Of a stretch of 64,000 nt of DNA, positions 7,101 to 60,905 are shown piece after piece. Both the position numbers and the translations under genes were made by a program. Origin of the DNA: Zoroaster sp. YZ-2022 (lineage: Eukaryota; Echinodermata; Asteroidea; Forcipulatida; Zoroasteridae). The notes under the pieces are model-generated. The model worked only from the letters and a program-made list of their open reading frames with translations, was not told the DNA's origin and did not search any database. The stretch spans positions 29,416,288 through 29,480,287 of the forward strand of contig CM055833.1 of NCBI GenBank assembly GCA_029582265.1, in the 5' to 3' direction. Numbering within the stretch: position 1 is the stretch's first letter; each line of letters begins with the position of its first letter.

Positions 7101-10100
7101 GACTAAAAAATGGGGAAAAAAGGAAAATGTTTTGGTATATGGTGTGGGAGGTAGACTTCTAGACGAGTACTTTTTCATGAGTACAAGTATGAGTACAGAA
7201 AAATGTACTCGACTATGAGCTATGAGTACGAGTACAGAAACACTTGAGTACAAGTACAAGTATTCTGGTGGGAGGGCCCTGGAAATGTTTGCATTCTAGA
7301 TGCTCTGTGGTACATTCTGAGAATTTTTCAATTTAAAAAAATTATAATAAATCTGCCAAAAAACAAATCCTGCTAAATATGGGAATACTTGGTGGATACA
7401 GTTGAATAATATTAGCAGATATATATATATTATTTGACTTACATTCTTCAGTCACATAAGTGTCCGGTACTGGTGATCTGAGATGGCAGTAGATATGACC
7501 TGAAATAAGATTCCATACGATGACCTCACCATCATAGCTAGAGGTCGCTAGCAAGCTTGGTAAACACACGTTAATAGACAAGATATCCTCTTTATGGCCA
7601 TCTCTCTGTAAACAAAAATCAATTAGGCCGTCTTTAGAAATAACATCCCTGCCAAGCGAAAAAAGAACTACTGTCAACACCGGAAAGGACTAAAGCTTAT
7701 AGTCTTTAAGTGTTTAATCTATGTTTTAAAGAGTTTTGTCAATGACAACTCTTTATAAACAATTACTTTTTTACTTAAACAGGACTTGAACCTGTGACCT
7801 CTGGACTACCGTACCAGAGCTCTACTCAACTGAGCTATCCAGCCCTATGGTTGACTGTCTTCCAAAATGTCAATATGTTTGATCTGGGGTCACTAATTGA
7901 ATATAGTTATATTTATCTCACGGAAAGTTTTTTCAATTAACAAGTTAAATCTAAAATTTGTCAAATTTGTCACTTTTTGTAAGTTAATTGTAATTTTATT
8001 ATAAAGAGTGTAGCAAAATAAATTCTCAAAGTCAATAACTTTATAATAGGTTTATAATTTTAAAATAAACATGTGAAACAGACTTTTGTACACAAAGTGA
8101 AATGAGAAAACTCTCACCAAATCATCCGCCCATTTTGGCAGTGGGCATTGCACGTGTCTGAAATCTTCTGAGTTATCTGTGTACATGTTGATATGACGAT
8201 CCCATCCCACTGACATGATGAAACGGTTCTTGTTCATCTCGATGTAGCAGACATCTGTGATCTCGGCAAAATCATCCTCTGTTAAATGAATAAATGGAAA
8301 TGTCAGAGTCAACTGATACTGATGAAGATGCTTAATTTAAAAAAAATGTTTTAAACCCATCTGTACATATTTGTGAGAAAACGCCATTAACCCTTCTGTG
8401 ACTGTAAGGGGCAAAATCAGTCAAAAAATGTATATACTTGCCAGTTATATCTAGTGCACTTAACCAGTTCGCGTCGGGAATAAAAAAGTTTTTCTGGGCC
8501 CCTGTGCGCGTTTCTTTTCCCACACAAACACGTTAATGGAAGCTTCCACAGCGTGTGGCCACGTCTACCGAGCATGTCACTGTACGCTCGGTTCGTTGCC
8601 ACGTCAACCGAGCATGCATACAAATATTCCGGAGTTTCCTATGGCGTGTTTAGACGCTCTCCAATCCGTGGTTCCAAAAAAAATTGCGTGTATACACGGC
8701 CTCCGACGCGAACTGGTTAAAGTCGAATACTGTCAAACCTTACGTGCCAGTAAGTAATTTACAGGTCAAAATGAGTCAACTGTCTTTGACTGGTAAAAAC
8801 ATTGTCTTGTATTGTTCAGGGTTGTCAAAATGACAGTAAAAACCAGTCAAAAATGCCCCTGTGTGCACATTTGGGTCAACAGTCAAAACAGGCAGTTGAC
8901 TGATTTTAACCACTATAGCAACTTGCCACTAAAGTGCAGCTATAGTAGGAGGGTTAACAAGAGAATTTAAAAAAAAGGAGAAAATTTTACAAAAAGTTGG
9001 ATTTGAATGCAAAAAGTGGAATATTCTGACTTAAAGCTGTGAAGTCCATCATATGGAGATGTTAAAAAATTATTATCCACTTTTTACAATTTACATAATC
9101 TATGAGCATTGTGTACATCAATATTGTGCTATTTTCATAAGATTCAGAGAAAGATATTTCATTAGGACTTCAGGAGAAAGTGGATGCTTTTAAACCATCC
9201 ATCTCTGTACATTATCTCTAAGATCATGGAAATAAAAGGTGGATTCTTTGTGGTGACTATCATGTATATTGATATAAGAAACTAACAAGATATTAAAAGG
9301 TTATACACTCATGCGTTGCTAAGATACCCATCTCTAAGTGTCCTTATTTCAAAAAGATAAGACCACTTCAATTGACTAACAATAATAAAAGAGACGTCTA
9401 TGTCAATACTGAACATGAAAGGCCCCCTTGGGAATTTTTATAACTAATATTTAAACACAAAAAACACGATGTGAGGTTTAAGATGGTATGACACATCCAT
9501 TGAAATCTTTCTGTGTGAGAATTTTTGTAAAAATTTTTTCAAACTGAATTGACATCTGATGACAGATCAAAATTCCATGACTAAGCAACATTGACCAGTG
9601 TGAAAATTTAAAAGGAACTTTTGCAGTTGTCTCCGAAATGTTTGGGCAAATTAAAGTGACCATTTCACAGGTTGGTTTCTATCAAGATTTCTTGATCTTC
9701 ATTAAGTTTGAATGCGCATAATGAGACCACAGTGTTTAAATGGGAGAAAATTATCCTAAGCAAGAAACAATTTTTTGAAGAAATCCATACCTCTTTCTAG
9801 TCTCTTTAAACAATGACCATTGTTGTAGTTCCAGATCTTCAGCCGACCATCGCGTCCTCCTGTGATTAGTCTCCGATTGGAGGTGTCAAAGGTCATAGTG
9901 GTGATGGCATTATTGTCATGAGCTTGGGAAAACTCGAAAACTGCACTGCCAGTTTCAAAGTCCCAAATTTTGACAACCTACAAAAAAGACAAATATTTCA
10001 CATTTTCAAACTACACCACAATTTGTCTTTTGACAGTAGGTTTTTGTGAAGATCTGTCTTGGAATTGATTTCAATCCAGGGAAAAATATTTCAAATGAAG

Positions 10101-21000: not shown

Positions 21001-23508
21001 TCCTGGATCACCTAAGCACTGAGCAGTGACTCATTAATCATTGGTCTTCCTCAGGGGCCAGCTGAAATGGGAAACTGTCATATAACCACCACACTTCGAA
21101 GAATCGAAAAGAAAGAAAGAAAGGGGCCAGCTTTGAATTTGAAGAATACAAAGTAGACATTTCTGATTCAGAAATGCGAGGAAAACCCTTGACTGTTATT
21201 CTGGAGAAAACCCCATAAGATCACATAAAGTTTCTTCGTCCGAACAACTCATTAAAAAATTCATAAAAACATTGACAGATGAACACAAGAAATCGTTCTG
21301 CCTGTAAACAATGTTAGGATTTGTGATCTATATTGAACAGTTTTGCTTGTATCACATAACAAAACGCTACATAAAATTCACAATTTACTATTATTTGTTT
21401 ATTAAATTTTCAGTGATCAGAATGCATTGCACTCACCTTTCCTCGGAGACCCAGAGACTTACGGATAACACTTTTGAACTGATCAAGCGTCAGAGTTCCT
21501 GAATTCTCTGAATCCTCATTCTGCAAGAGATATATAGAATCACAGGTATCTCAAATTGTATTTATTTTAGTTATTATTTATTTATTTATTATTTCAGGCA
21601 ATTCAATAAAAACAAAGTGACCAACATACTCCCACATGAAAAACAGAGATGCGCCGATCAAGAACAAAAATGTTGGTGAAAAAGTGGAACACACGGTATA
21701 TGCACCCATAAGTGGAACACACGGTATATGCACCCATAAGTGGAACACACGGTATATGCACCCATAAGTGGAACACACGGTATATGCACCCATAAGTGGA
21801 ACACACGGTATATGCACCCATAAGTGGAACACACGGTATATGCACCCATAAGTGGAACACACGGTATATGCACCCATAAGTGGAACACACGGTATATGCA
21901 CCCATAAGTGGAACACACGGTATATGCACCCATAAGTGGAACACACGGTATATGCACCCATAAGTGGAACACACGGTATATGCACCCATAAGTGGAACAC
22001 ACGGTATATGCACCCATAAGTGGAACACACGGTATATGCACCCATAAGTGGAACACACGGTATATGCACCCATAAGTGGAACACACGGTACATGTATATG
22101 CACCCATAAGTGGAACACACGGTATATGCACCCATAAGTGGAACACACGGTATATGCACCCATAAGTGGAACACACGGTATATGCACCCATAAGTGGAAC
22201 ACACGGTATATGCACCCATAAGTGGAACACACGGTATATGCACCCATAAGTGGAACACACGGTATATGCACCCATAAGTGGAACACACGGTATATGCACC
22301 CATAAGTGGAACACACGGTATATGCACCCATAAGTCAAAAAAAAGTCTTCAGTTTCTGTTCATAGGTTGGCTTCAAAATGGAGTGCTATGGTCGAGCGGT
22401 TTAGTGCATTGGATTTGTGTTCTGATGGCTGAGTCGTCAGAATGTGGGTTCGAATCCCAACCGCGACCATGGTGCTTGTGTCCTTGAGCAAGACACTTTA
22501 CCATAATTGCTTCTCTCCACCCAGGGGTAAATGGGTATCTGTGAGGGCAGAGTTGGTTGTTGTGTTTGATTAGCCCTATATGCGCTGTAATGGCAGCAAT
22601 TGAGCTGTATACTACCCAGGGAGCTGAGATGGTTTCAGGAATGATTTATGAGCCTGATGACCAGGGGTAATAATATAATGCACCTTGAGCACCAGTTTGG
22701 TGGATATATGTGCGCTATATAAGTCCACATTATTATTATTATTATTATTATTAAAATCGGTGCGGTGATGCCTTTTTTTTAACCAGACCAAATTTCCCAT
22801 ACACAAAGTATGGTGGCTAAAAGCAATCTCAGGATTCTCCTGAGGACGATCAGAGCACACTGATCGAAACGTCGAGTTGTAACCTCCAGTTCTTTTCAGA
22901 ACTAATTACTACTCAATTGAGAATTTCACACGGTGTCACCGCAATTATTCTTACTTATCTTCCTCACCATGCAAAGCTACAAGTTCTATCTAATAAACGT
23001 CCCATAGATGGACTGTATGGGTTTATACTAGTACATGTACATACAAATGTTAAGAAAACTTGCTTGATACATGTACTTACATGTACCTCAAACGATTGCT
23101 TTAATTTGTGGAGATGCTCAAGATTAATACGCTCTTCAATCTGTGGACAAACAAAATAGAATAAAAACTGAAAAGTTATAACTTGATCATGAAATTTAAA
23201 CCTCACAAATATATGCTGGCAATAAAAGAAAACAGAATCAATTAATACCATAAGGCCAGTTATCAAGCGAAATTTGCAGTAAATGATTAACACATTTTAA
23301 TTGGCGCAAGCATTCACCAAAATTTAAGACGTCAAAATTTACTTCGGGTTACTTAGGTATGCGAATAAGCCTTTAGTAGTCAGTGCATGTTTGGTTAAAA
23401 ATCAACCTTAACCACTACAATTACTTTACAAATCACAAATGTGATAACTAGCAGTTGCACATAGAGTCTTACCTCTGAGTACTTATACCTGTATTTTCTG
23501 AGCGGCAT
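1013..23508 (-). CDS. EF-hand plus WD40 repeat protein, WDR49/WDR64/WDY family, 26 coding exons, 1000 aa
   Basis: The gene is read from 26 minus-strand exons, each listed separately. Every junction is GT-AG, phases agree throughout and the exons total 3003 nt including the TAG stop. Residues 25-95 hold two EF-hand-like loops (DSENSGTLTLDQ, then DSNSEGHIAWDQ followed by FCTYMQLEYEEKED, a family hallmark). About 12 WD40 strand-d motifs follow, among them ISFWSG, VRMWNP, VVKIWDFETG, LKIWNYNNG, VIVWNLISG, VHFWNVYNG, FITVWDIEG and VRLWTTEG, enough for two beta-propellers. An acidic and lysine-rich stretch (residues 885-910) precedes the C-terminal GTGKRLRHEKLKP segment. Relatives are axonemal (CFAP337) or testis-associated (fly WDY), so a role in cilia or sperm flagella is inferred, not shown. 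Paralogue identity (WDR49 versus WDR64) is unresolved. The start ATG at 23508 has A at -3 and an in-frame TAG 12 nt upstream. Introns carry many transposons, but no exon is broken. Confidence 0.93.
1476..1998. mobile_element. Inverted-repeat DNA transposon with 6-bp flanking duplication
   Basis: Ends are YAGACCTCCCAACATT in inverted orientation, about 16 bp each. TTACTG flanks it directly at 1470-1475 and 1999-2004. It sits in the last intron of the WD40 gene. No transposase was found inside its 523 bp. Superfamily not assigned. Confidence 0.65.
2016..2237. mobile_element. MITE with about 27-bp terminal inverted repeats
   Basis: Both ends read TTTCATAGCGCCGCT followed by AACCGTTAAGCA or TACTGGTAAGCA in inverted orientation. 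Length is 222 bp with no coding capacity. It lies just right of the element ending at 1998. Confidence 0.65.
2359..2471 (-). CDS. WD40/EF-hand gene exon 25
   Basis: Residues 912-949, SMTNFSSRPQFQFDDDQIAK and ELKQKPFNKGTGK. The KGTGKR motif continues into exon 26. Acceptor GTTTTTAG, donor GTGAGG. Confidence 0.93.
2886..3124 (-). CDS. WD40/EF-hand gene exon 24, acidic region
   Basis: Residues 832-911. GTLGQQQAWDIYNPSTFAHP and MVPYDVLVDP lead to a Glu/Ser run and a Lys/Glu helix (MKEKIEEKKVGKERWKD). Donor GTTAGT is the only one that keeps phase 0 into exon 25. Read-through reaches a stop 6 codons later. Acceptor ATACAATAG. Confidence 0.9.
3161..3521 (-). mobile_element. tRNA-derived SINE, full length
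   Basis: The minus strand begins with a tRNA-like head (A box TGGCCGAGCGGT, B box GGTTCGAATCC). A body with GAGCAAGACACTTAACCATA follows, then the tail GCGCCTTGAGCACC ... GCGCTATATAAGTCC, ending in (ATT)n. It is in the intron just upstream of exon 24. The same family occurs at 22387, 33253 and 51544. Confidence 0.88.
4035..4123 (-). CDS. WD40/EF-hand gene exon 23
   Basis: Residues 802-832, MNLVESHNVFITSSLDCTVR then LWTTEGHYIG, completing the last clear WD40 blade. Acceptor TTTCAG, donor GTGAGA, phase 1 out. Confidence 0.94.
4225..4560. repeat. 20-22-bp minisatellite, about 13 copies
   Basis: Units read GATACATTTGGCAAACTTTT with variants CTGTTACC and TTTTATC. The array lies between exons 22 and 23 of the WD40 gene. 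A 29-bp palindrome interrupts it at 4428-4456. Confidence 0.9.
4428..4456. repeat. 29-bp palindrome inside the minisatellite
   Basis: CATGGAGGAAGGAA, one A, then its exact reverse complement. It is absent from every other repeat unit of the array. Confidence 0.85.
4641..4680 (-). CDS. WD40/EF-hand gene exon 22 (40 nt)
   Basis: Residues 789-802, LGSWRGHIESIT, the GH start of the next WD40 repeat. It is the second-shortest exon. Acceptor TTTCTTAG, donor GTAAGG. Confidence 0.88.
4978..5043 (-). CDS. WD40/EF-hand gene exon 21
   Basis: Residues 767-789, FITVWDIEGYCLFNKEANPP. Acceptor ATTTGTAG, donor GTAAGT, phase 1 out. Confidence 0.93.
5046..5205 (+). repeat. Tandem duplication of about 80 bp
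   Basis: The segment starting ATATACAACAAGTACATGAC occurs twice in a row (5051 and 5126) with two or three differences, just upstream of exon 21 in the gene's orientation. Confidence 0.8.
5725..5803 (-). CDS. WD40/EF-hand gene exon 20
   Basis: Residues 741-767, SKNSNATVTTMQLSEDDTSL then FTGDSRG. The acceptor TTGTTGTGTAG is required for an open frame. A nearer AAATAG gives a stop. Confidence 0.92.
6126..6184 (-). CDS. WD40/EF-hand gene exon 19
   Basis: Residues 721-740, SVHFWNVYNGGVLFAQFCS: blade end plus first strand of the next. Acceptor CCTTGATAG, donor GTAAGT, phase 0 out. Confidence 0.92.
6598..6687. mobile_element. 90-bp TTAA-flanked palindromic MITE
   Basis: Starts TTAACCCTAACTCCCTAG and ends with its reverse complement. 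The centre contains GGAGGATTTTGAAGGATTTT. Same family as 44295-44450 and the expanded copy at 58442-59487. Confidence 0.75.
6684..6890 (+). repeat. Partial copy of the TTAAAGGGACAG MITE family
   Basis: Carries TATTTTCAGTCACTGAGTTA and the CCATACCCTGTTGATCGTG word found at 13733-14066 and 45115-45336. It abuts the preceding element at a shared TTAA. Confidence 0.5.
6905..6997 (-). CDS. WD40/EF-hand gene exon 18
   Basis: Residues 690-721, DGDNSICKLLFMPSRK then AGQLIASGPRG. Acceptor CAATACAG, donor GTGAGT, phase 1 out. Confidence 0.94.
7443..7605 (-). CDS. WD40/EF-hand gene exon 17
   Basis: Residues 636-690, HKEDILSINVCLPSLLATSS and YDGEVIVWNLISGHIYCHL, a complete WD40 repeat. Acceptor TTTGTTTACAG, donor GTAAGT, phase 1 out. 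Confidence 0.95.
7775..7850 (-). repeat. tRNA-like sequence, probable SINE head relic
   Basis: The minus strand has A box TAGCTCAGTTGAG, B box GGTTCAAGTCC and a T stem ACAGG/CCTGT. The acceptor ends do not pair and the anticodon loop would be 9 nt, so it is unlikely to be a working tRNA gene. Confidence 0.45.
8118..8278 (-). CDS. WD40/EF-hand gene exon 16
   Basis: Residues 582-635, EDDFAEITDVCYIEMNKNRF then MSVGWDRHINMYTDNSED. Acceptor TCATTTAACAG, donor GTGAGA, phase 0 out. Confidence 0.94.
8387..8957. mobile_element. TTAA-flanked element interrupted by a second MITE
   Basis: Begins TTAACCCTTCTGTGAC and ends AGTAGGAGGGTTAA, matching a related uninterrupted copy at 53330-53627. The body includes CCCCTGTGTGCACATTTGGG and GGCAGTTGACTG. 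Without the inserted MITE it is about 314 bp. It lies in the intron between exons 15 and 16. Confidence 0.75.
8464..8716. mobile_element. 253-bp MITE, TTAA target, TIR CCAGTTCGCGTCGG
   Basis: Terminal inverted repeats CCAGTTCGCGTCGG lie directly inside TTAA duplications (8460-8463 and 8717-8720). The copy at 53330-53627 shows the unoccupied site GTGCACTTAAAAGTC at 53391-53403. TTAA targeting suggests the piggyBac superfamily. No transposase is present. A longer relative is at 54675-58108. Confidence 0.85.
9791..9977 (-). CDS. WD40/EF-hand gene exon 15
   Basis: Residues 520-582. Two blade ends, VVKIWDFETG and GRDGRLKIWNYNNG, flank HDNNAITTMTFDTSNRRLIT. This is the clearest WD40 repeat of the gene. 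Acceptor TTTTTTGTAG, donor GTATGG, phase 1 out. Confidence 0.95.
11199..11304 (-). CDS. WD40/EF-hand gene exon 14
   Basis: Residues 484-519, including HKEPVHCAKYNPSFKHIVSC and SDGS, which precedes VVKIWDFETG of exon 15. Acceptor GCTCTACAG, donor GTAAGT, phase 0 out. Confidence 0.94.
11562..11713 (-). CDS. WD40/EF-hand gene exon 13
   Basis: Residues 434-484, VWDIKDQVCMLTIRPKTHK through GFCIATDQMALLSHRTK. It starts exactly at the VWD of the preceding blade. Acceptor TTCCTTGAAG, donor GTATGC, phase 2 out. Confidence 0.92.
11818..12279. mobile_element. Foldback element with 148-bp inverted arms
   Basis: Arms 11818-11965 and 12132-12279 are reverse complements with few mismatches; the outer ends are TTTCTTCAAC and GTTGAAGAAA. 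The spacer is 166 bp. It occupies most of the intron between exons 12 and 13, ending 43 nt from exon 12. Confidence 0.85.
12323..12428 (-). CDS. WD40/EF-hand gene exon 12
   Basis: Residues 398-433, KPTGMLRGHNAPIFSLYIA then ENRIYSISQDKTIK: a textbook GH...D WD40 repeat whose VWD lies in the next exon. Acceptor TGATGACAG, donor GTAAGT, phase 0. Confidence 0.94.
12640..12706. repeat. Fragment of the TTAACCCTAACTCCCTAG MITE
   Basis: Contains GAAGGATTTTGGAGGATTCAGG and ends CTAGGGAGTTAGGGTTAA. The opposite end is not present. Confidence 0.6.
13143..13295 (+). repeat. Old 5'-truncated SINE copy
   Basis: Body words GGCTGTATACTCCCCAGGGA and ACAGGGGTAATAATG and a final ATTATTATT match the full SINEs with many changes. 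The tRNA head is missing. It ends about 25 bp before exon 11. Confidence 0.65.
13321..13579 (-). CDS. WD40/EF-hand gene exon 11
   Basis: Residues 312-398. GCTTGSTHVEAQLKEIK leads to a helical linker (DKKLKLAQQNYAHAKRRLDA) between the two propellers. A blade with FRIHKGVKVFDFCKEKN and MDRIVRMWNPYVP follows. Acceptor GATAATACAG, donor GTAAGA. Confidence 0.95.
13733..14066. mobile_element. TTAAAGGGACA-type MITE carrying an inserted hairpin repeat
   Basis: The two ends (AAAGGGACAATATCATCATG and the inverse of GATATCCCTTTAAG) share inner words such as GGGCATGGAATTGG and CAGTCACTG in inverted order. A copy of the GATCAG-hairpin repeat lies between them at about 13830-13930. Confidence 0.55.
13888..13927 (-). 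repeat. Hammerhead-like hairpin motif, family 1
   Basis: The minus strand reads CTGAAGA, then C, then GATCAG / loop / CTGATC, then GAAACGTCGAG. Part of a dispersed repeat found about seven times in the window. Confidence 0.45.
14169..14356 (-). CDS. WD40/EF-hand gene exon 10
   Basis: Residues 249-312, with HSPLTRFVRWKVHNDWVAEL and YYDEIRSIMSCCNNESSALVIG, a conserved propeller segment of the family. Acceptor AAATACAG, donor GTAAGT, phase 1 out. Confidence 0.94.
14540..14652 (-). repeat. Dispersed repeat with hammerhead-like hairpin, family 1
   Basis: The minus strand carries CTCCTGAGGACGATCAG, loop AGCAGA, CTGATCGAAACGTCGAG, then CAGTTCTTTTCAGAACTAAT and CACATGGTGTCACCGCAATT. It lies in the intron between exons 9 and 10. 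Confidence 0.6.
15039..15176. repeat. Two AT dinucleotide microsatellites
   Basis: (TA)n runs at 15039-15074 and 15150-15175 flank a unique segment with CGCATAACGCGTGAAACTCG. Confidence 0.85.
15350..15515 (+). repeat. Family 1 hairpin repeat, rearranged copy
   Basis: Plus strand GACGATCAGAGCATACTGAG, a repeated GCATACTGATCG and CACGTCGAGTTGTAACCTCC. The hairpin loop is duplicated and the GAAA is changed to GACA. It ends close to exon 9. Confidence 0.55.
15528..15620 (-). CDS. WD40/EF-hand gene exon 9
   Basis: Residues 218-249, containing YDECLIMYGDSEGCINIIII, a WD40 blade without the final Trp. Acceptor ATTTCAG, donor GTAAGT, phase 2 both sides. Confidence 0.92.
16564..16656 (-). CDS. WD40/EF-hand gene exon 8
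   Basis: Residues 187-218. GDREIQFYELSTFEP is a WD40 blade end joined to LGTG of exon 7. Acceptor CTGTGCAG, donor GTAAGG, phase 2 in and out. Confidence 0.92.
17383..17471 (-). CDS. WD40/EF-hand gene exon 7
   Basis: Residues 158-187, including PKWVTDFVLMPQYNKLILGTG. Acceptor TGTTTTCAG, donor GTGAGT after GG, leaving phase 2. Confidence 0.92.
18178..18237 (-). CDS. WD40/EF-hand gene exon 6
   Basis: Residues 138-157, DGTISFWSGNLELKRTRSVM, a typical WD40 strand-d end following SQ of exon 5. Acceptor CTTTCACTCAG, donor GTATGA, phase 0. Confidence 0.9.
18664..18834 (-). CDS. WD40/EF-hand gene exon 5 (functional copy of a triplicated exon)
   Basis: Residues 81-137, from DQFCTYMQLEYEEKED to SDGTFVATSQ, where the first WD40 repeat begins. 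Only this copy has the 3' half of the exon and the donor GTATGA. Two partial copies with the same acceptor lie at 18879-19054 and 19055-20380. Confidence 0.94.
18703..20380 (-). repeat. Exon 5 triplication, 176-bp tandem unit
   Basis: Units start with GATGCG at 18703 and 18879 and GATGCA at 19055, and the run ends at a GATGCG at 20381. Copies 2 and 3 keep the splice acceptor (exon edges at 19010 and 20341) and the first 40 codons. They lack the 3' half of the exon and its donor. The junction pairs GATGCGAAGTAGTGGCTCCC (exon) with GATGCGCAGTGATGGTTCCC (intron), suggesting exchange between short similar sequences. Copy 3 is split by the hAT element at 19081-20227. Confidence 0.92.
19081..20227. 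mobile_element. Non-autonomous hAT transposon, 1147 bp, 8-bp TSD
   Basis: Ends are CAGGGTTGT and ACAACCCTG, flanked by CCTAAGAG at 19073-19080 and 20228-20235. CAGGG ends plus an 8-bp duplication are typical of hAT. The 3' 150 bp are GC-rich (GGGCTTCGCCCCC). A 79-codon open frame at 19444-19683 resembles no known transposase to me. Confidence 0.9.
20827..20892 (-). CDS. WD40/EF-hand gene exon 4, EF-hand 2
   Basis: Residues 59-80, NEEQITALFMKIDSNSEGHIAW. The second loop starts DSNSEGHIAW and is completed by DQF in exon 5. Acceptor TTCCATTCAG, donor GTAAGT. Confidence 0.93.
21437..21520 (-). CDS. WD40/EF-hand gene exon 3, EF-hand 1
   Basis: Residues 31-58. Loop DSENSGTLTLDQ has Gly at position 6, but Gln instead of Glu at position 12, so calcium binding is doubtful. 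The exiting helix is FKSVIRKSLGLRGK. Acceptor CTCTTGCAG, donor GTGAGT. Confidence 0.93.
21682..22335. repeat. 28-bp minisatellite, about 23 copies
   Basis: The unit AAGTGGAACACACGGTATAT plus GCACCCAT is almost invariant. One unit carries a 6-bp CATGTA insertion near 22090. The array lies in the intron between exons 2 and 3. The unit has no stop in any minus frame, which creates long but meaningless open frames. Confidence 0.95.
22387..22753 (+). mobile_element. tRNA-derived SINE, full length
   Basis: Head ATGGTCGAGCGGTTTAGTGC and B box GGTTCGAATCCC. The central box GAGCAAGACACTTTACCATA and the tail GTGCGCTATATAAGTCCACA precede (ATT)n. It is inserted right after the 28-bp array. Confidence 0.88.
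22837..22965 (+). repeat. Dispersed repeat with hammerhead-like hairpin, family 1
   Basis: Plus strand CTCCTGAGGACGATCAG, loop AGCACA, CTGATCGAAACGTCGAG, then CAGTTCTTTTCAGAACTAAT and CACACGGTGTCACCGCAATT. ATTCTC at the start and GAGAAT near 22920 could pair. Confidence 0.6.
23087..23140 (-). CDS. WD40/EF-hand gene exon 2
   Basis: Residues 13-30, IEERINLEHLHKLKQSFE, an amphipathic helix leading into the first EF-hand. Acceptor TTTGTCCACAG, donor GTACAT, phase 0 on both sides. Confidence 0.88.
23473..23508 (-). CDS. WD40/EF-hand gene exon 1, start codon
   Basis: Encodes MPLRKYRYKYSE (residues 1-12). Donor is GTAAGA after GAG, phase 0. An in-frame stop lies 12 nt upstream of the ATG, and AAG precedes the ATG, giving A at -3. 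Because the exon could also be internal (an AG abuts the ATG), more distant 5' exons remain possible. Confidence 0.72.
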
Positions 23509-24276: not shown

Positions 24277-27200
24277 GAAACACTGAACAACACACCCACA
24301 AACGCCACTCAGCTCCATAAAATTCCTACAGCCGCAATGAACTACTCATTCTTCGCAGTGCTCCATGTACTGATGTAGCTCTATCTTATTCAGCATTGAG
24401 TCAATTGAACTGTCTTGGAATACTTGCCAATCAACTCCAAACATACCGCCGCACACATAGAGGTAAAAAAGCTGGTCGCCATAGAATGGACAGACTTACA
24501 CAACTAGCACTCCGGCCTCACCAACCCCCAACAGCGAACTTAACCACATCAACAAGCGACATTGGCATACATGTAACTTCAACTCCAAATGTTCATGATG
24601 AGTCTAAATTTCAGCTCTGTGTCTTGAATACTTAATCCATATGTAACAAATCGGATGAATTTGTTGACTTTGTACTTCACAACAATTTGGATCTTGTTGA
24701 TATATCCGAGACATGGTTTAAACCTGATGATGACTTGCTACCCTGCGAGTGCACTCCTGCTGGCTACTCTCTCCATCATATCCCCAGACCAAAAAAGACC
24801 GGTGGAGGGGTTGCACTTCTCTTTAGGTCCAGTTTATCTGTCAGTATGAAAAATGTTAACATTGACTACCTAACATTTGAATCTCTGCATGCTGAGGTAA
24901 CGTGCAACACTAGATCTGTTCGCCTTGTTAATATATATCAACCAGAAAGGGATGTTGATGGTAAACATGTAAATTTCTCCATTTTTCTGCAGGAATTTGA
25001 GAAATTAATTGTGGATTATCTCTTGCACCCATCTGACATTATTTTAACCGGCGATTTTAACATTCATATGGACATCACTTCAAACAATTATGCAAATCAG
25101 TTTAAAGATCTGCTCTCTGCTCATGGACTTATCCAGCACATCACAGCACCCACTCATCGATATGGTCACTGTCTTGACCTCATGATAACGCGTGAAAATA
25201 CTTCACCTCTCATCTCGAATATAACTATCCATCCCGGCTTATCTGATCATTATGCAATCATGGTAAATATGAACCTTAAAAAACCTCCCATACCTACCAT
25301 TTCTGTAAACTACTCGCCACTGGAAAAATGTAAATATTAAAGATTTATGTCATGATATTGAATCTCAACTGGAAAATGTAAACTTTGAAGATGGTGAGCT
25401 GGATTCTTGTGTCAGTCTATTTGAATCTACTGTCGTAACATCTTGGACGATCATGCTCCACAAAAAACTCGAACTGTTAAACTACAATCTGAATCCCCCT
25501 GGTTCAATGATGATATTCGTGCTGCAAGGAAAATCCGTCGTCAACTTGAGCGAAAATGGCGTGACAATGGGAAACTTGGAGTACATCAGCAAGAATACTG
25601 TAACCAACGTGATATTGTGAAGAACATGATTAACCAGGCAAAAATAACTCACTACTCATCTCTTGTGGAAGAGAGCTCTGGCGATCAGAAAAAAACTCTT
25701 TAACATTGTTGAAAAGCTGCTTCATAAACCCAAAACTCCAGTGCTTCCATCTACACACTCTGATCAGGACCTCGCAAATGCATTTTCAAACGTTTTTGTC
25801 ACAAAAATTGAGAATATCCGTCGTTCTTTTCCCCCAGTACCTGCCATTCTATCACAAACACCATCACGCAAGGATCCACAATGTAGACTGTATGTTTGAG
25901 CCTACTAATGTTACGGAGATCAAGAAACTCATCATGAAATCGCCATCAAAATCATGTGAACTTGATCCAGTACCAACTTCACTAATAAAACAAAATATTG
26001 ATGTGTTTGCTAAGTATATCACAATTATTGTAAACAGATCTCTTTCTTCCGGTTGTTTCCCTGATAGCCAGAAGGTTGCTCATGTTCCTCCTAAAGAAAC
26101 CCAATTTGGACAAGGAAGTTTTCAAAAATTACCGACCGGTAGCGAATTTAAAGTACCTTGGAAAAGCAATCGAGCGAGTTGTTTCATCACGGATCTCTGA
26201 CCATGTTCGTGCAAATAACCTGTCGGACACATTTCAGTCAGCCTATAAACCATTTCATGGAACGGAAACTGCTCTTCTCCGCATCAACAATGACATTTTA
26301 TCTGCCATGGATGATGGAAAAATCACTGCATTAGTTTTGTTAGACTTAAGCGCCGCTTTTGACACGGTCGATCACAAAATCCTTCTCTCCCGCCTTCAAT
26401 ATCATCTTGGAATACATGACACATCCCTGGATTGGTGTAGGTCCTACCTTTTAAATAGGCCCTAGCAGTTTTGTATTGGTAACGCTATCTCTGAGCCTGT
26501 TATTCTTGACTATTCTGTACCCCAAGGCTCTGTGCTCGGCCCACAGTGGTTTACTGTTTATACCTTTCCAGTTCGTGATATCATTTTGAAGTATAATTTA
26601 AATTACCATGTCTACGCTGATGACACGCAGCTTTACATTACTTTTAAATCTTCTCAAGAACCTGCCGATTCCTGCATTACAACACTGGAGAAATGTATTC
26701 AAGAGATTCGAAGTTGGATGAGACAAAACTTCCTGAAATTGAACGACGAAAAAACAGAATTTGTTCTATTTGGATCACGTCAGCAATTGTCTAAAGTTTC
26801 TCTTCCATTTATTACAATTGGTGACTCGCAGATAACCCCCTCATCACAAGCACATAATTTGGGTGTTATATTTGACTCGACAATGACTTTAAAACCTCAT
26901 ATCTCCAACATTGTTCGCATATCATCATTTCATATCAGGAATATTAGCCGAATAAGGAAATACTTGAATAAAAGTGCTGCTGAATAAATTATATATGCAT
27001 TTGTCACATCACGGCTCGATAACGGGAATGCTCTCCTCTACGGTCTCCCGCAGAATCAAATATCTCGTCTTCAGCACATACAAAACACAGCAGCTCGTGT
27101 TGTGACTTTGTCCAGAAAGTCATGCCATATCATGCCAATTTTGAAAGAACTGCACTGGCTTCCTGTTTCACAGAGAATTGTTTTTAAACTTATGCTAATT

Positions 27201-27552
27201 GTTCACAAATCTTTTAATAACATTGCTCCAATTTATATTTCTGAACTGCTTAAAGTCTACACTCCATCACGCAATTTGTGCTCCAGCAACATGTCACTCC
27301 TAAAGGAACCAACTTCAAAACGGAATTGGGGTGATAGGTCTTTTTCTGTCGTGGCTCCGAGACTCTGGAATCATCTTCCAACTAAACTCAAATCTTGTCA
27401 TAGTATAACTAGATTTAAGTCGATGCTTAAAACTCATCTTATGTCACAATTCTTCAAAGATGATGTATATTTGTAATTGCATTGTAGGTACATGTATCTC
27501 AGTACATAATTTTTTCCCTATGCTATCATTGTATATTGTTTGTATTCATGTT

Positions 27553-54347: not shown

Positions 54348-54982
54348 CTGTAAATAGAAAGAAAGTAAATCACTTTCAAATCAGTTATTTCATCATGGAT
54401 AGAGGGTAATTAATTAAAAATCACCTGTGTTTTGGGCTTTTTTTAAAGCAATTTCTGAAAATGTTCAACAGAACATTGTAATTTTACTTGAGGAAAGGAT
54501 AACAAATGTTTTAAAATTACACACTTCTCAAAATAATATTAATAAGCATGGCTTTACAGTAAACATTTCCCAGAATGAATTTATAGTGGATCCTGACATA
54601 AATTCATTTCAGTGTACAATCAGTTACCGCTTGTTCATAAATTATCACACATATAGTATCAGATGCTCCCTTAACCAGTTCGCGTCGGAGGCCGTGAGTA
54701 ATATGTGTGCAGCATCACAGGACAGTTTGTCGAGGTGCAGTGTGCAATTTGTGTGTAGTGATTTTGTGCAGTTTGTAATGGCAAGGACCACATTGCACCA
54801 CAGTGCAATGGAGCAATGTGGAGGAGATTTGCACTTTGTGGAGGAGCGTGCACTTTGTGGTGGTGGAGCACCATAATTTTTTTTTTTGATGGCCAACTTC
54901 AATTTTTTTTATTTTTTTTATTTTTTTTTATGACGTCATTTCGGCCAAGTAAAAAAGAAATTGTGTTACCATAGGAGTTCCA

Positions 54983-55318
54983 CCACCACAAAGTGCACGC
55001 TCCTCCACAAAGTGCACGCTCCTCCACAATTTTACCACTGCACACAACTGCACACTACTCCCTCCACACAAACTGCACACAAAATACTGCACACAACTGC
55101 GCACTACTCCCTCCACACAAACTGCACACAAAATACTCCACACAAACTGCACACAAAATACTCCACACAAACTGCACACAAAATACTGCACACAACTGCG
55201 CACTACTCCCTCCACACAAACTGCACACAAAATACTTACTCCCTCCACACAAACTGCACACAAAATACTGCACACAAAATACTGCACACAACTCCCTCCA
55301 CACAAACTGCACACAAAA
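54983..55318. repeat. Irregular tandem array of CTCCACACAAACTGCACACA motifs
   Basis: Units of CTCCACACAAACTGCACACA and AAATACTGCACACAACTGCG in varying order, just inside the left TIR. The words resemble CTCCACAAAGTGCACGCTCC within the TIR itself. Open frames on both strands are artefacts. Confidence 0.88.
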
Positions 55319-56252
55319 TTAAACGCAGCATGCATATTGATGATTTCGGGCAAGTTGAGACATAATGACACAAAAATATAAACACAAAAGAACACATTCA
55401 ACTCTTTTTATTATTTTTTTATTAACTTTTTTTTAAAATTCACGTAACAATGAATGGATTACCGATACAAATCACTATATAAAAGAAAACTCAAAATTAT
55501 TATAACTCAAAATATTAATAATTACCAAGAAAAATGCACATTAAACAAGAATCCCTATATAAAAACAATGTAAATCAAATATCTATTGGACTTAGCTTGT
55601 CAATTTTGTACACGTTATATGGTGATTTTGGGGAGAGGAAATGATGAGGGATGTATAGGACTAGGGTAATCAATAGATAGTCAAGTGAATTATAAGGAAT
55701 ATAACAGAATTAAAAGAAAGTCAACTCACACTGAATTTTACAGGGATTAAGAGTCTACACTCCTTGCAATAAATGTAACACGATAGATTTACACATCTCA
55801 CTCGTTCATACCGAGCACATGGGACGAAGTGTTTTGGATTATATTTCCGCTTCAATGAACTGCTCAGGAACTTGGAATTTCGTTGCGTGTACTGTCAACG
55901 AAACCGCAAATGAAGTCGGATATTAGGGCTCATAATACAGTTGTCTATCTTACATGAAACAACGGCCCGCTTTAGAATGTCAGGCCTGTAGTTCACAATA
56001 CACTGTCTATTTAAAGATGAATAGAAAGTCACCCAGAAGTTTAGAACCCATGCAGAGGCACTCATTTTCTTCGAAATTAAGTTGTCACTGCCCTTGATGT
56101 AACGTAATAGTGTAAAATAACCATAAAGGATTACTGTAAGACTAACAGAGGTGGTTATTTTATAGATTTTTTTATTCCTACCAAAAAACACTATTATAGA
56201 TGTTTTTTTTTTTAATTACAGTAGTCTTTCTGAAACATCTGGTCTTTCATTA

Positions 56253-56882
56253 TCACTCTTCCTCGTTCTCTTCATCCTCGTTCTCTTCATCCTCGTTCTC
56301 TTCATCCTCATTTAGTTGAAGTAGTAGTCCGTCAAATTTGGTATGGTGTTTAGGCATTACTCTGTTCAGAGCTTTGTTTACTTCCATGCCTTTATTTACT
56401 TTTTCTTGAGATCTTCCGCAATATCCTGATGAGTCCCATTATCTTTCAGATGTAGGTAACTTGACAAAAATCCTTGTATTTGTTGAAAAAGATTCGCTTG
56501 ACTGCCCAAAGGGTTTTCCTATTGGCTTTTTCCTTGGCTTGATCTTCACTCATACCCCGTTGACGTACTTTTCATATTTTTCACACCACATCTCTTCAGT
56601 AGCCACTTTAGCCTCTTCCAACCAGTCTCGAAAAGTGGCATTGTCTTCCAGTTCAGAACTAGACTCATCCTCTTCCGATGATTCGTCATATTCCACCTCC
56701 GTATCGGATTCTGAATCATCTTCCTCGAAATCTCCGTCTTCATCCTGCGTAGATTCAGTTTCACAAGTTTCTATTTCCGAATCTTCAAATCTACGCTTTT
56801 TAACATCGGGTTCAGAATTATCGATGTCAGAATTGTCAGATTGGATAGCTTTAATTTCAGAATCATCGTCAACTTCATCCAT
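56253..56882 (-). pseudogene. Frameshifted acidic protein gene inside the nested element
   Basis: An ATG at 56882 starts a 110-codon frame, rich in Asp, Glu and Ser, with a KKRR basic patch, ending NATFRDWLEEAKVATEEMW and CEKYEKYVNG. Protein-like sequence continues in other frames to about 56253, where it ends in Asp/Glu/Asn repeats, so at least two frameshifts have broken it. Product not recognised. Position inside a transposon suggests an element-encoded protein. Confidence 0.55.
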
Positions 56883-56910
56883 GCATGTTCTGCATGCGGT
56901 TTGACAGCAG

Positions 56911-57322
56911 AAATAACATTCATGTTGAATCTCTGATGCTTAATCTCCGATTGACAAGAAACGGAAGAAATAGTTTATATATAGGCCTATAACTACTCAT
57001 TTCGCTGGTCATTTGCAAGCAAAATGAGCAAATGAGCAGCGAAATGAGCAAATGAGCAGCGAAATGAGCAAATGAGCAGCGAAATGAGAAAATGAGCAGC
57101 AAAATGAGAAAATGAGCAGCAAAATGAGCAGCGAAATGAGCAAATGAGCAGCGAAATGAGAAAATGAGCAGCAAAATGAGCAAATGAGCAGCAAAATGAG
57201 CAGCAAAATGAGCAAGCGAAATGAGCAGCGAAATGAGTAGTTATAGGCCTATATATAAACTATTTCTTCCGTTTCTTGTCAATCGGAGATTAAGCATCAG
57301 AGATTCAACATGAATGTTATTT
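56911..57322. repeat. 96-bp perfect inverted repeat around a short satellite
   Basis: Arms 56911-57006 and 57227-57322 are identical in inverted orientation over 96 positions by eye. The 220-bp spacer is made of AAATGAGC and AGCG/AGCA units of 8-20 bp. Confidence 0.93.
57007..57226. repeat. AAATGAGCAGC short satellite
   Basis: Repeats of AAATGAGCAGCG and AAATGAGCAGCAAAATGAGC fill the loop of the inverted repeat. Confidence 0.92.
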
Positions 57323-58441
57323 GTGACCGCATGAATAGACACTGAGACTCTCCTTTCTTTTATGTTTTCTTGTATCGGTATATAGCTTGCCTTATTGATG
57401 ATAAAAAATATATTTTAGACGGGGAGTGTAGCGGCTTCAGTGCCTAGTTTTTCTCATCACGAGAGGGCGCACTCGAGCTCGGCAATTAGCACGGAGCCAG
57501 AAGCACATTTTCCGAGAACCCATTTTCGGCACGACTTTTGTTCAGAAATTCACACTTTTAGCATTCATCCCACCTACCTTCGGTTTATTTTAAGAACACA
57601 GATCCTTGCCTCTGATATATCCTCTGACGTCATAAAAAAAATAAATAAAAAAAAAATAAAAATTGAAGTTGGCCATCAAAAAAATAAAATTATGGTGCTC
57701 CACTACCACAAAGTGCACGCTCCTCCACAAAGTGCAAATCTCCTCCACATTGCTCCATTGCACTGTGGTGCAATGTGGTTCTTGCCGTTACAAACTGCAC
57801 AAAATCACTGCACACAAATTGCACACTGCACCTCCACAAACTGTCCTGTGATGCTGCACACATACTACTGCCGTGTATACACGCACATTTTTTTTTGGAC
57901 AGCGGATCGGAGAGCGTCTAAACACGCCACAGGATTCTCGGGAATATTGTATAGATTCCCGGTCGACGTGGCAACGAGCCATAAGCATACGGTGGAAGAG
58001 CAGTCTCCACGGTCACGCTCTGGTGAGCACCATTGTTCGTGTTTGTGCGGTAAAAATAAACCCGCCATGGGGGTTCAGAAAAACTTTTTTATTCCCGACG
58101 CGAACTGGTTAACACACAAGTGCAAACAGTATGTATACAAGACAAATTAGATTCAACAATTATTTTGACATGACACCAATTTTAGGACAACATGCTGAAA
58201 AGGTCACATTAATTTTAACCAACATATCAGAACAACCCAAATGTGGAAGTTTTAGCTTATTACACTGTGTCGTTCATGCGAAAATAGGGAAATGCTTTCA
58301 GATTTGTTCATATTCATCATAATGCAGATTATGAGTTAGAATATATTTCCCCAAATTCGAAATGGAAATTTGTAAATTTTCCTATATAAGTGACAGAACC
58401 TCAGACAAGATTATTTCTAGGGAAATTAGATTTCCTTACCT

Positions 58442-59487: not shown

Positions 59488-60065
59488 TACAATGCTCATA
59501 ATAATGAGTTCTTAAAAATGCTACACATTTGCGGGGTGAAAATGAACGTCATATAAATGTATTTGTGATGTCCCAGAAGGATGCTTATTCCTGTATGTTA
59601 AGTGTATTGTTTCATGCATGAGTGAACAGCATACTGAGTACTTGTACATAACATCCATACATGTAATGTATAAAAAGAATTAATTAGGACAGAAATCTGT
59701 TGTTTGTCAAGCACCGCCTTGCCAGGATTTAAAAAAACAAATGCTTCATTATATTAAATTGATTTGACATACAGTGTATAAAATCACAATGCGTGATGAA
59801 ATGGAATCATTAATCATTATAAATGTTAATATTAATTCAATTGGTACGTGATTAGAACAGCAGCTTTGTCTTACTGTTGACTGGTTGGAGGCCACAGGCT
59901 TAAGGCAACAGAATGCCAAAAAATGTTGGATCTTATTATTATTATGAACCTTTCTCACTTAACGAAGGTTGAGATACGAGTTGTACGATACGGTTCTTTT
60001 CAGAACCTGTACCTCAGCTTCACGTTAGTTGAGATAAACACATGGTGTTACCGCAAACCGAAACG

Positions 60066-60644
<579 letters not shown>

Positions 60645-60905
60645 GCATTTCTGGCAATTAAACCAAGAATCCCTCAATACCTCGGACCGGCGTGGTCTGG
60701 ATGTATGGAAACAAACCTGGTTGGGATGAAACTCTTGGTATTCTTTGGTCGGAAAAAGGTTTAAAACTGAGCTTTGGGTACAGGAAAGGTTTGTGAATAT
60801 CCACAAGTTGATCGTACATTTCAAAAATGTTTATTATTAAACCACAATGGTGAAAACAAATCTGTCGCAATTTGTATCGCAAATTTTTCGATGCGATACA
60901 GGGGA

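Follow-up and report, generated by a model that had tools for sequence, protein, structure and literature searches.

The window analyzed here is a 64,000-nucleotide stretch of the genome of Zoroaster sp. YZ-2022 (Asteroidea; assembly GCA_029582265.1, contig CM055833.1, positions 29,416,288 to 29,480,287). It carries an insertion of 3173 bp (54697-57869), which is very probably a dead, non-autonomous member of a family derived from Maverick/Polinton elements, with a PolB-encoding lineage that appears to be free of integrase, often has hairpin ends and would be mobilized in trans. The insertion is bounded by terminal inverted repeats (TIRs) of 242 bp on the left (54697-54938, plus strand, beginning with AGTAATATGTGTGCAG) and of 245 bp on the right (57625-57869, minus strand, inward start AGTAGTATGTGTGCAG). 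These are 95.1% identical. The target-site duplication GCCGTG is present on both sides (54691-54696 and 57870-57875). The insertion splits a miniature inverted-repeat transposable element (MITE), and the resulting composite extends over 54675-58108. Judged by eye, this host MITE is a separate, TTAA-flanked element with the ends TTAACCAGTTCGCG. A second MITE of the same family (8464-8716) represents the empty site. It aligns to both flanks of the insertion (its positions 232-253 to 54696-54675 at 100%, its positions 1-237 to 58108-57870 at 78%) and has the six duplicated bases only once. An earlier note, made from the letters of the window, had described a 3.17-kb transposon with its own empty site, an exact 6-bp duplication and TIRs of 242-245 bp, and this description holds in full. 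It had also reported AG ends. Both ends do start with AG, and they can now be distinguished as AGTAAT (left) and AGTAGT (right). The window contains no further copies of the TIR outside the element.

Neither a polymerase nor an integrase was found in the window copy by Pfam analysis of nine frames or by tblastn, as the earlier note had stated, and none of the frames scanned gave a Pfam match to a transposase domain. What that note did not mention is a broken gene on the minus strand (56253-56923, start assigned by eye) for a protein with a C2H2 finger, an acidic stretch and a helical domain. Its pieces are found at 56550-56939, 56446-56571, 56396-56518 and 56253-56438. Also unmentioned was a 107-nt inverted repeat: the start of this gene (56908-57014) is duplicated in inverted orientation at 57219-57325 (plus strand, 98% identity), and the two copies flank a minisatellite with a 20-bp unit (57018-57227).

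Genome-wide searches were made in the 1.00-Gb assembly that holds the window (on G000:C18). The window TIR has at least 75 matches, with the best 40 of 725 candidates scored, so that all counts from this search are lower bounds. Facing pairs of TIRs delimit elements of 3.0 kb (two), 3.2 kb (the window copy), 3.3-3.4 kb (three), 3.6 kb, 6.3 kb, 6.9 kb and 11.85 kb, and TIR lengths in the relatives range from 0.12 to 2.9 kb. A 6-bp duplication is present in each of the 12 elements for which both ends could be read. These are the window copy, ten relatives and one textbook Maverick (GCCCTA). The duplications of the relatives are CCTGGG (L043), AATGCC (L044), AGCGCA (L045-L047, three copies with common flanks, counted as one insertion), AATGGC (L049), ATGCTC (L050), GCTCTT (C17), CGCACC (C16), GGCGAT (L059), TGTATC (L061) and GATGAC (L062). 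L055, L056, L057, L058, L060, C9 and C14 were not readable at both ends and are outside this count; L016 and L017 are a further pair with common flanks. The other located ends start with AGTAGT, the exceptions being L060_L (AGTAGA) and one end of the copy at locus C548 (AGTAAT). Ends were located partly via this motif, so that the end list is no independent test of it. For C548, it was considered that the composite and its MITE had moved there together. This was rejected because the flanks are homologous, and C548 is thus the same locus as the window, as an allele or a segmental duplicate.

The earlier note had left two options: either a Polinton derivative that is non-autonomous, or a different class that also makes 6-bp duplications. 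It had proposed a genome search with the TIR and a tabulation of duplication lengths, and had named other lengths, or an unrelated transposase in longer copies, as arguments against its view. Neither of the latter was encountered in the readable elements, and the first option is supported by the uniform 6-bp duplications and by longer copies with the same or related ends, which encode a Maverick-type PolB. A DDE cut-and-paste transposon from another superfamily with 6-bp duplications, unrelated to Mavericks, might be suggested by the lack of a detected polymerase and integrase in the window copy and by its size of 3.2 kb, as intact vertebrate Mavericks are much larger (12.7-24.6 kb; PMC8097293). 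The longer copies share the end motif and have related TIRs, and no transposase domain was found in the scanned frames of the window copy or of the 11.85-kb copy (C17). We thus consider such an origin extremely unlikely, and another DDE class was rejected for the window element on the basis of the PolB-bearing copies.

C17 has ends related to those of the window copy. Its TIR shows 85% identity over about 420 nt, with 96% in an inner stretch of 142 nt. It codes for a long PolB frame (DNA_pol_B_2, 3.4e-8) with N-terminal C2H2 fingers and for a protein with WW and PC4 domains. C16 (11.3 kb) is 91-98% like C17 in its interior, while the ends are more different. When read through, both elements encode the finger-bearing PolB, the WW/PC4 protein and a protein of 150-170 aa (p170), for which no database homolog was found at E <= 0.01. 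The WW/PC4 (p15 coactivator) protein is also encoded at L042:3930-4637, where it adjoins a protein of 150-177 aa, and it has relatives in L051, L055, L060, L064 and L066. L055 combines a C17-type PolB, p170, the PC4/WW protein and the C2H2 gene, with a AGTAGTATATGTGGAGC end beyond the C2H2 gene. L056 has p170, the C2H2 gene and a AGTAGTATATGTGGAGC end, and a PolB piece of the other (not C17-type) group lies just outside that end. In view of the ends, the 6-bp duplications, the PolB copies and the proximity of the C2H2 gene to PolB in L055, the short elements appear to be derivatives with internal deletions, in many cases palindromic. The PolBs of L041-L042 and L054 have N-terminal C2H2 fingers, and an internal region of theirs weakly matches Vsr/endonuclease profiles, so that a nuclease insert within PolB is possible.

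The textbook Maverick (C1:82.386-82.400 Mb) has (AGT)2 ends and codes for PolB, an rve integrase (6.6e-13) with a chromodomain (2.2e-10) and a Pox_A32/Adeno_IVa2-like ATPase. An adenovirus-protease match is below the cut-off. A 445-aa protein has no Pfam match, and we take it to be capsid-like. The PolB of this element and that of C17 share 65-66% identity over a C-terminal piece. In comparisons of C17 with C16, the ratio of nonsynonymous to synonymous differences per site (pN/pS) for PolB is 0.82 in the long part and 0.36 in the C-terminal part, with few changes; against the textbook Maverick, the long part gives a pS of 0.86 and a pN of 0.31. Together with the values for the C2H2 gene given below, this shows constraint on the lineage as a whole, and recent copies look dead on arrival.

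No integrase was detected in the polymerase lineage with these ends, an observation that lay beyond the view of the earlier note. The integrase, ATPase, 445-aa protein, protease and other proteins of the textbook Maverick gave no tblastn match in the window copy, C17, C16 or L041-L052, and the first three gave none in L055-L062. Genome-wide, PolB has at least 107 matches, which were merged to 91 loci. An integrase match within 8 kb was found for 0 of 32 loci with C17-type PolB (at least 84% identity) and for 27 of the 59 others (Fisher p = 5.6e-7; the best 99 of 1931 PolB candidates and the best 113 of 3311 integrase candidates were scored). The 59 others (46-78% identity) may comprise several lineages. 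The loci C9 and C14, which have integrase and capsid-like genes, carry homologs of the PC4/WW protein (49-50%) and of p170 (35-36%), so that C17-type elements seem to be Mavericks whose genes for integration and virions have been lost.

It may be asked whether the integrase-free PolB elements just go back to one accidental deletion in a Maverick that was then amplified, the hairpins described below being ordinary TIR variation. The closely similar interiors of C17 and C16 point to a recent founder. In addition, the PC4/WW protein and p170 have their distant homologs at C9 and C14, beside integrase and capsid-like genes. A single accidental deletion is at odds with the distribution of the integrase over the PolB loci, and the two PolB groups are only about 65% identical. 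The hairpin arms also argue against it. On balance, we regard this explanation as unlikely, though it deserves serious consideration.

Many ends fold into terminal hairpins. Ends were collected by similarity to the window TIR (28 ends, with L016 and L017 having common flanks), and the two ends of the textbook Maverick were kept apart. A self-complementary stretch reaches the first 30 nt in 24 of the 28. It starts at nt 7, directly after AGTAGT, in 17 ends, at nt 1 in two, at nt 10-11 in three and at nt 27-30 in two. Folding of the single strand gave z values of -35.7 for the C17 end, -28.0 for the C16 end and -14.3 for the left end of the window copy (54697-55142), as compared to +0.6, with no long stem, for the textbook Maverick end. 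In the window copy, the left hairpin is decayed (54723-55124; outer and inner arm, 68% overall), and an inner arm of this kind is missing at the right end. The inner arm covers at least 80 of the first 100 nt in 15 of 29 ends; the two ends of the textbook Maverick are among the 29, and both lack such an arm. For these 15 ends, chosen for their long inner arm, the two arms of the same end agree at a median of 98/100 nt (98.9% of aligned positions). Between different elements, the corresponding median for outer arms is 81/100 (100 pairs, range 71-100). In 13 of the 15, the own inner arm matches the outer arm at least as well as that of any other element. L059 has a shorter but perfect arm (66/66). 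With this difference between own arms and those of other elements, the hairpin seems to be actively kept, which argues against ordinary TIR variation. It looks like concerted evolution of the arms, and the best explanation of their likeness would be that one arm is copied from the other during replication.

Thus, the family presumably consists of integrase-free, hairpin-ended Maverick satellites that are mobilized in trans. PolB would copy the linear element from AGTAGT, and the displaced end would fold back. Such foldback copying could keep the arms alike and could also give rise to short forms with an inverted duplication (copy-back forms), for example L043 and L044. The integrase for insertion would come in trans from full Mavericks of this genome, and one such Maverick left a duplication of equal length (6 bp). 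The window copy may be a copy-back form that has lost most of one arm.

Palindromic elements fit into this scheme. In L043 and L044, which are both palindromic, the gene is present in inverted copies; the arms of L044 share 92.5% identity along 2.9 kb. Matches to the C2H2 protein of more than 100 codons are found on both strands in 5 of 14 gene-bearing elements (L043, L044, the L045 group, L060 and L061; the window locus is represented by C548 in this set). The 107-bp inverted repeat of the window copy, in our reading, is what remains of a second palindrome arm. For PolB of the other group, pieces also occur as inverted pairs a few kb apart, namely at G000:C12:14048122 (+)/14050561 (-), C4:36268360 (+)/36274874 (-) and C1:63421153 (+)/63424780 (-), so that inverted duplication may extend beyond the short forms.

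Several points weigh against hairpin-ended satellites that borrow an integrase. Four of the 28 ends have no terminal hairpin (the right end of the window copy, both ends of L045, and L033). L061 and L062 inserted without a long hairpin at either end, and a hairpin is thus not essential for integration. The control for the hairpins is a single textbook Maverick with both ends defined, since C9 and C14 gave neither recognizable ends nor a duplication (C9 has no recognizable ends; the inverted repeat of C14 is 0.8 kb or longer and shows no duplication at its edge, and the ends of C14 are uncertain). Because the best candidates were scored and the integrase query was taken from a Maverick that belongs to the other PolB group, a diverged integrase near C17-type loci beyond C17 and C16 may have been missed. 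No element was found that combines the exact ends of the window copy with an integrase, and mobilization in trans is therefore what we infer rather than observe. Finally, ten copies of the C2H2 gene found via TIR or PolB do not show purifying selection (pN/pS 0.93; 58 synonymous and 227 other differences, 45 pairs; L045, L047 and L048 were left out as duplicates or the same locus). Judged by these differences, such copies are in neutral decay.

The C2H2 gene is the sole gene recognized in the short copies. Judged by eye, the window copy has a broken frame and lacks the finger motif; an open relative, P0102, is present in L043. A search with the largest piece (129 aa) gave 48 candidates, 18 of them relatives at E <= 1. 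A profile built from 14 relatives has 96 matches at E <= 0.001 (7991 candidates scored), mostly in short sequence-archive contigs; for one match (P0091), the source gives the name Patiria miniata. In full members, a single C2H2 finger is combined with a serine-rich acidic stretch and with a helical domain at the C-terminus, which is conserved. Mean column identity over 63 members is 35%, and the five positions that are nevertheless invariant suggest constraint at the protein level. When 18 members were analyzed with Pfam, only zinc-finger models recurred (zf-C2H2 in nine, best 2.4e-5), other matches being weak and scattered. In the genome, the gene has at least 175 matches (best 149 of 2581 candidates scored). 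Among the matches listed, most are without a stop codon and 25 have one (hand count), in a score ranking that favors intact copies. Eight copies found by protein similarity gave a pN/pS of 0.61 (28 pairs). The gene was not found in the examined pieces of integrase-bearing Mavericks, where only PolB fingers were matched.

One may speculate that the C2H2/acidic protein is the recombinase of the element, or an essential cis factor, and that the short elements are autonomous. Its position as the only gene in many near-identical copies would fit. The predicted structure (mean predicted local distance difference test score 76) shows a helical domain besides the C2H2 finger and has no BFVD or PDB match at E <= 0.001, and selection is not seen in the copies found via TIR or PolB. 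We consider this role very unlikely.

No relative was confirmed in IMG/VR viral contigs with the C2H2 piece, the C2H2 profile or the PolB piece, and none was found in prokaryote genomes. The end-motif pattern gave 10 candidate stretches in IMG/VR viral contigs.

Mavericks have been characterized as virus-like and self-synthesizing. To our knowledge, completion of their ends is understood mostly by analogy with adenovirus. Arms that are homogenized within each copy would be a readable trace of end completion in linear elements. In vertebrates, (AGT)2 is the commonest end motif of Mavericks, intact ones have 6-bp duplications, and their TIRs have 46-1447 bp (PMC8097293). The elements analyzed here resemble Maverick/Polinton (Polintoviricetes; adintovirus-type in animals) in the 6-bp duplications, the (AGT)2 ends, the long TIRs, which are within the published range for several copies, and the DNA_pol_B_2 PolB of the longer relatives. 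They differ in that integrase, capsid, protease and packaging ATPase were not detected in them, in their size of 3-12 kb and in the hairpin ends of many copies; some inverted repeats (2.9 kb in L044) exceed the published length. Ginger1 and Ginger2 have 4-bp duplications (5 bp in TDD-4/5) and TGTNR ends (PMC2836005) and thus differ in both respects, although integrase-type chemistry is likely for them as well as for the present elements. Some adintoviruses carry "Ziftr" zinc-finger genes (PMC11071296), which the C2H2 gene resembles in being a zinc-finger regulator-like gene on an adinto/Maverick element. The phrases non-autonomous, defective or miniature Polinton and non-autonomous Maverick were not found in the literature searched, which does not extend to subscription papers or Repbase, where such elements may well be listed.

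Defective copy-back genomes are known from linear DNA viruses, and hairpin telomeres from parvoviruses. Inverted-duplicate short forms and self-folding ends are similar to these, but the present elements are integrated with Maverick-type duplications and would be replicated by a protein-primed PolB. It is tempting to speculate, tentatively and at somewhat less than even chances, that there are three tiers of parasites: full Mavericks, which have an integrase and capsid-like genes; a distinct, hairpin-ended PolB lineage that lost its own integrase and virion genes and borrows them; and numerous short, often palindromic satellites with one C2H2 gene of regulatory type. The ends would replicate by parvovirus-like foldback from a protein-primed polymerase. 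If so, a PolB lineage has shed its integrase and capsid genes, still inserts with 6-bp duplications and has spawned many short gene-bearing satellites, which in an animal genome would correspond to the chains formed by virophages and by phage satellites.

Further repeats are present in the window. Within the element, a subterminal minisatellite with a unit of about 25/49 bp is located at 55037-55319. Outside of it, frames for a LINE-type (long interspersed nuclear element) endonuclease and reverse transcriptase were recognized by eye at 24636-27473. A tandem repeat of about 0.75 kb (21581-22348) has three open frames and encodes a repeated peptide, and an (ATT)n run of about 0.6 kb (60038-60658) is open in several frames.

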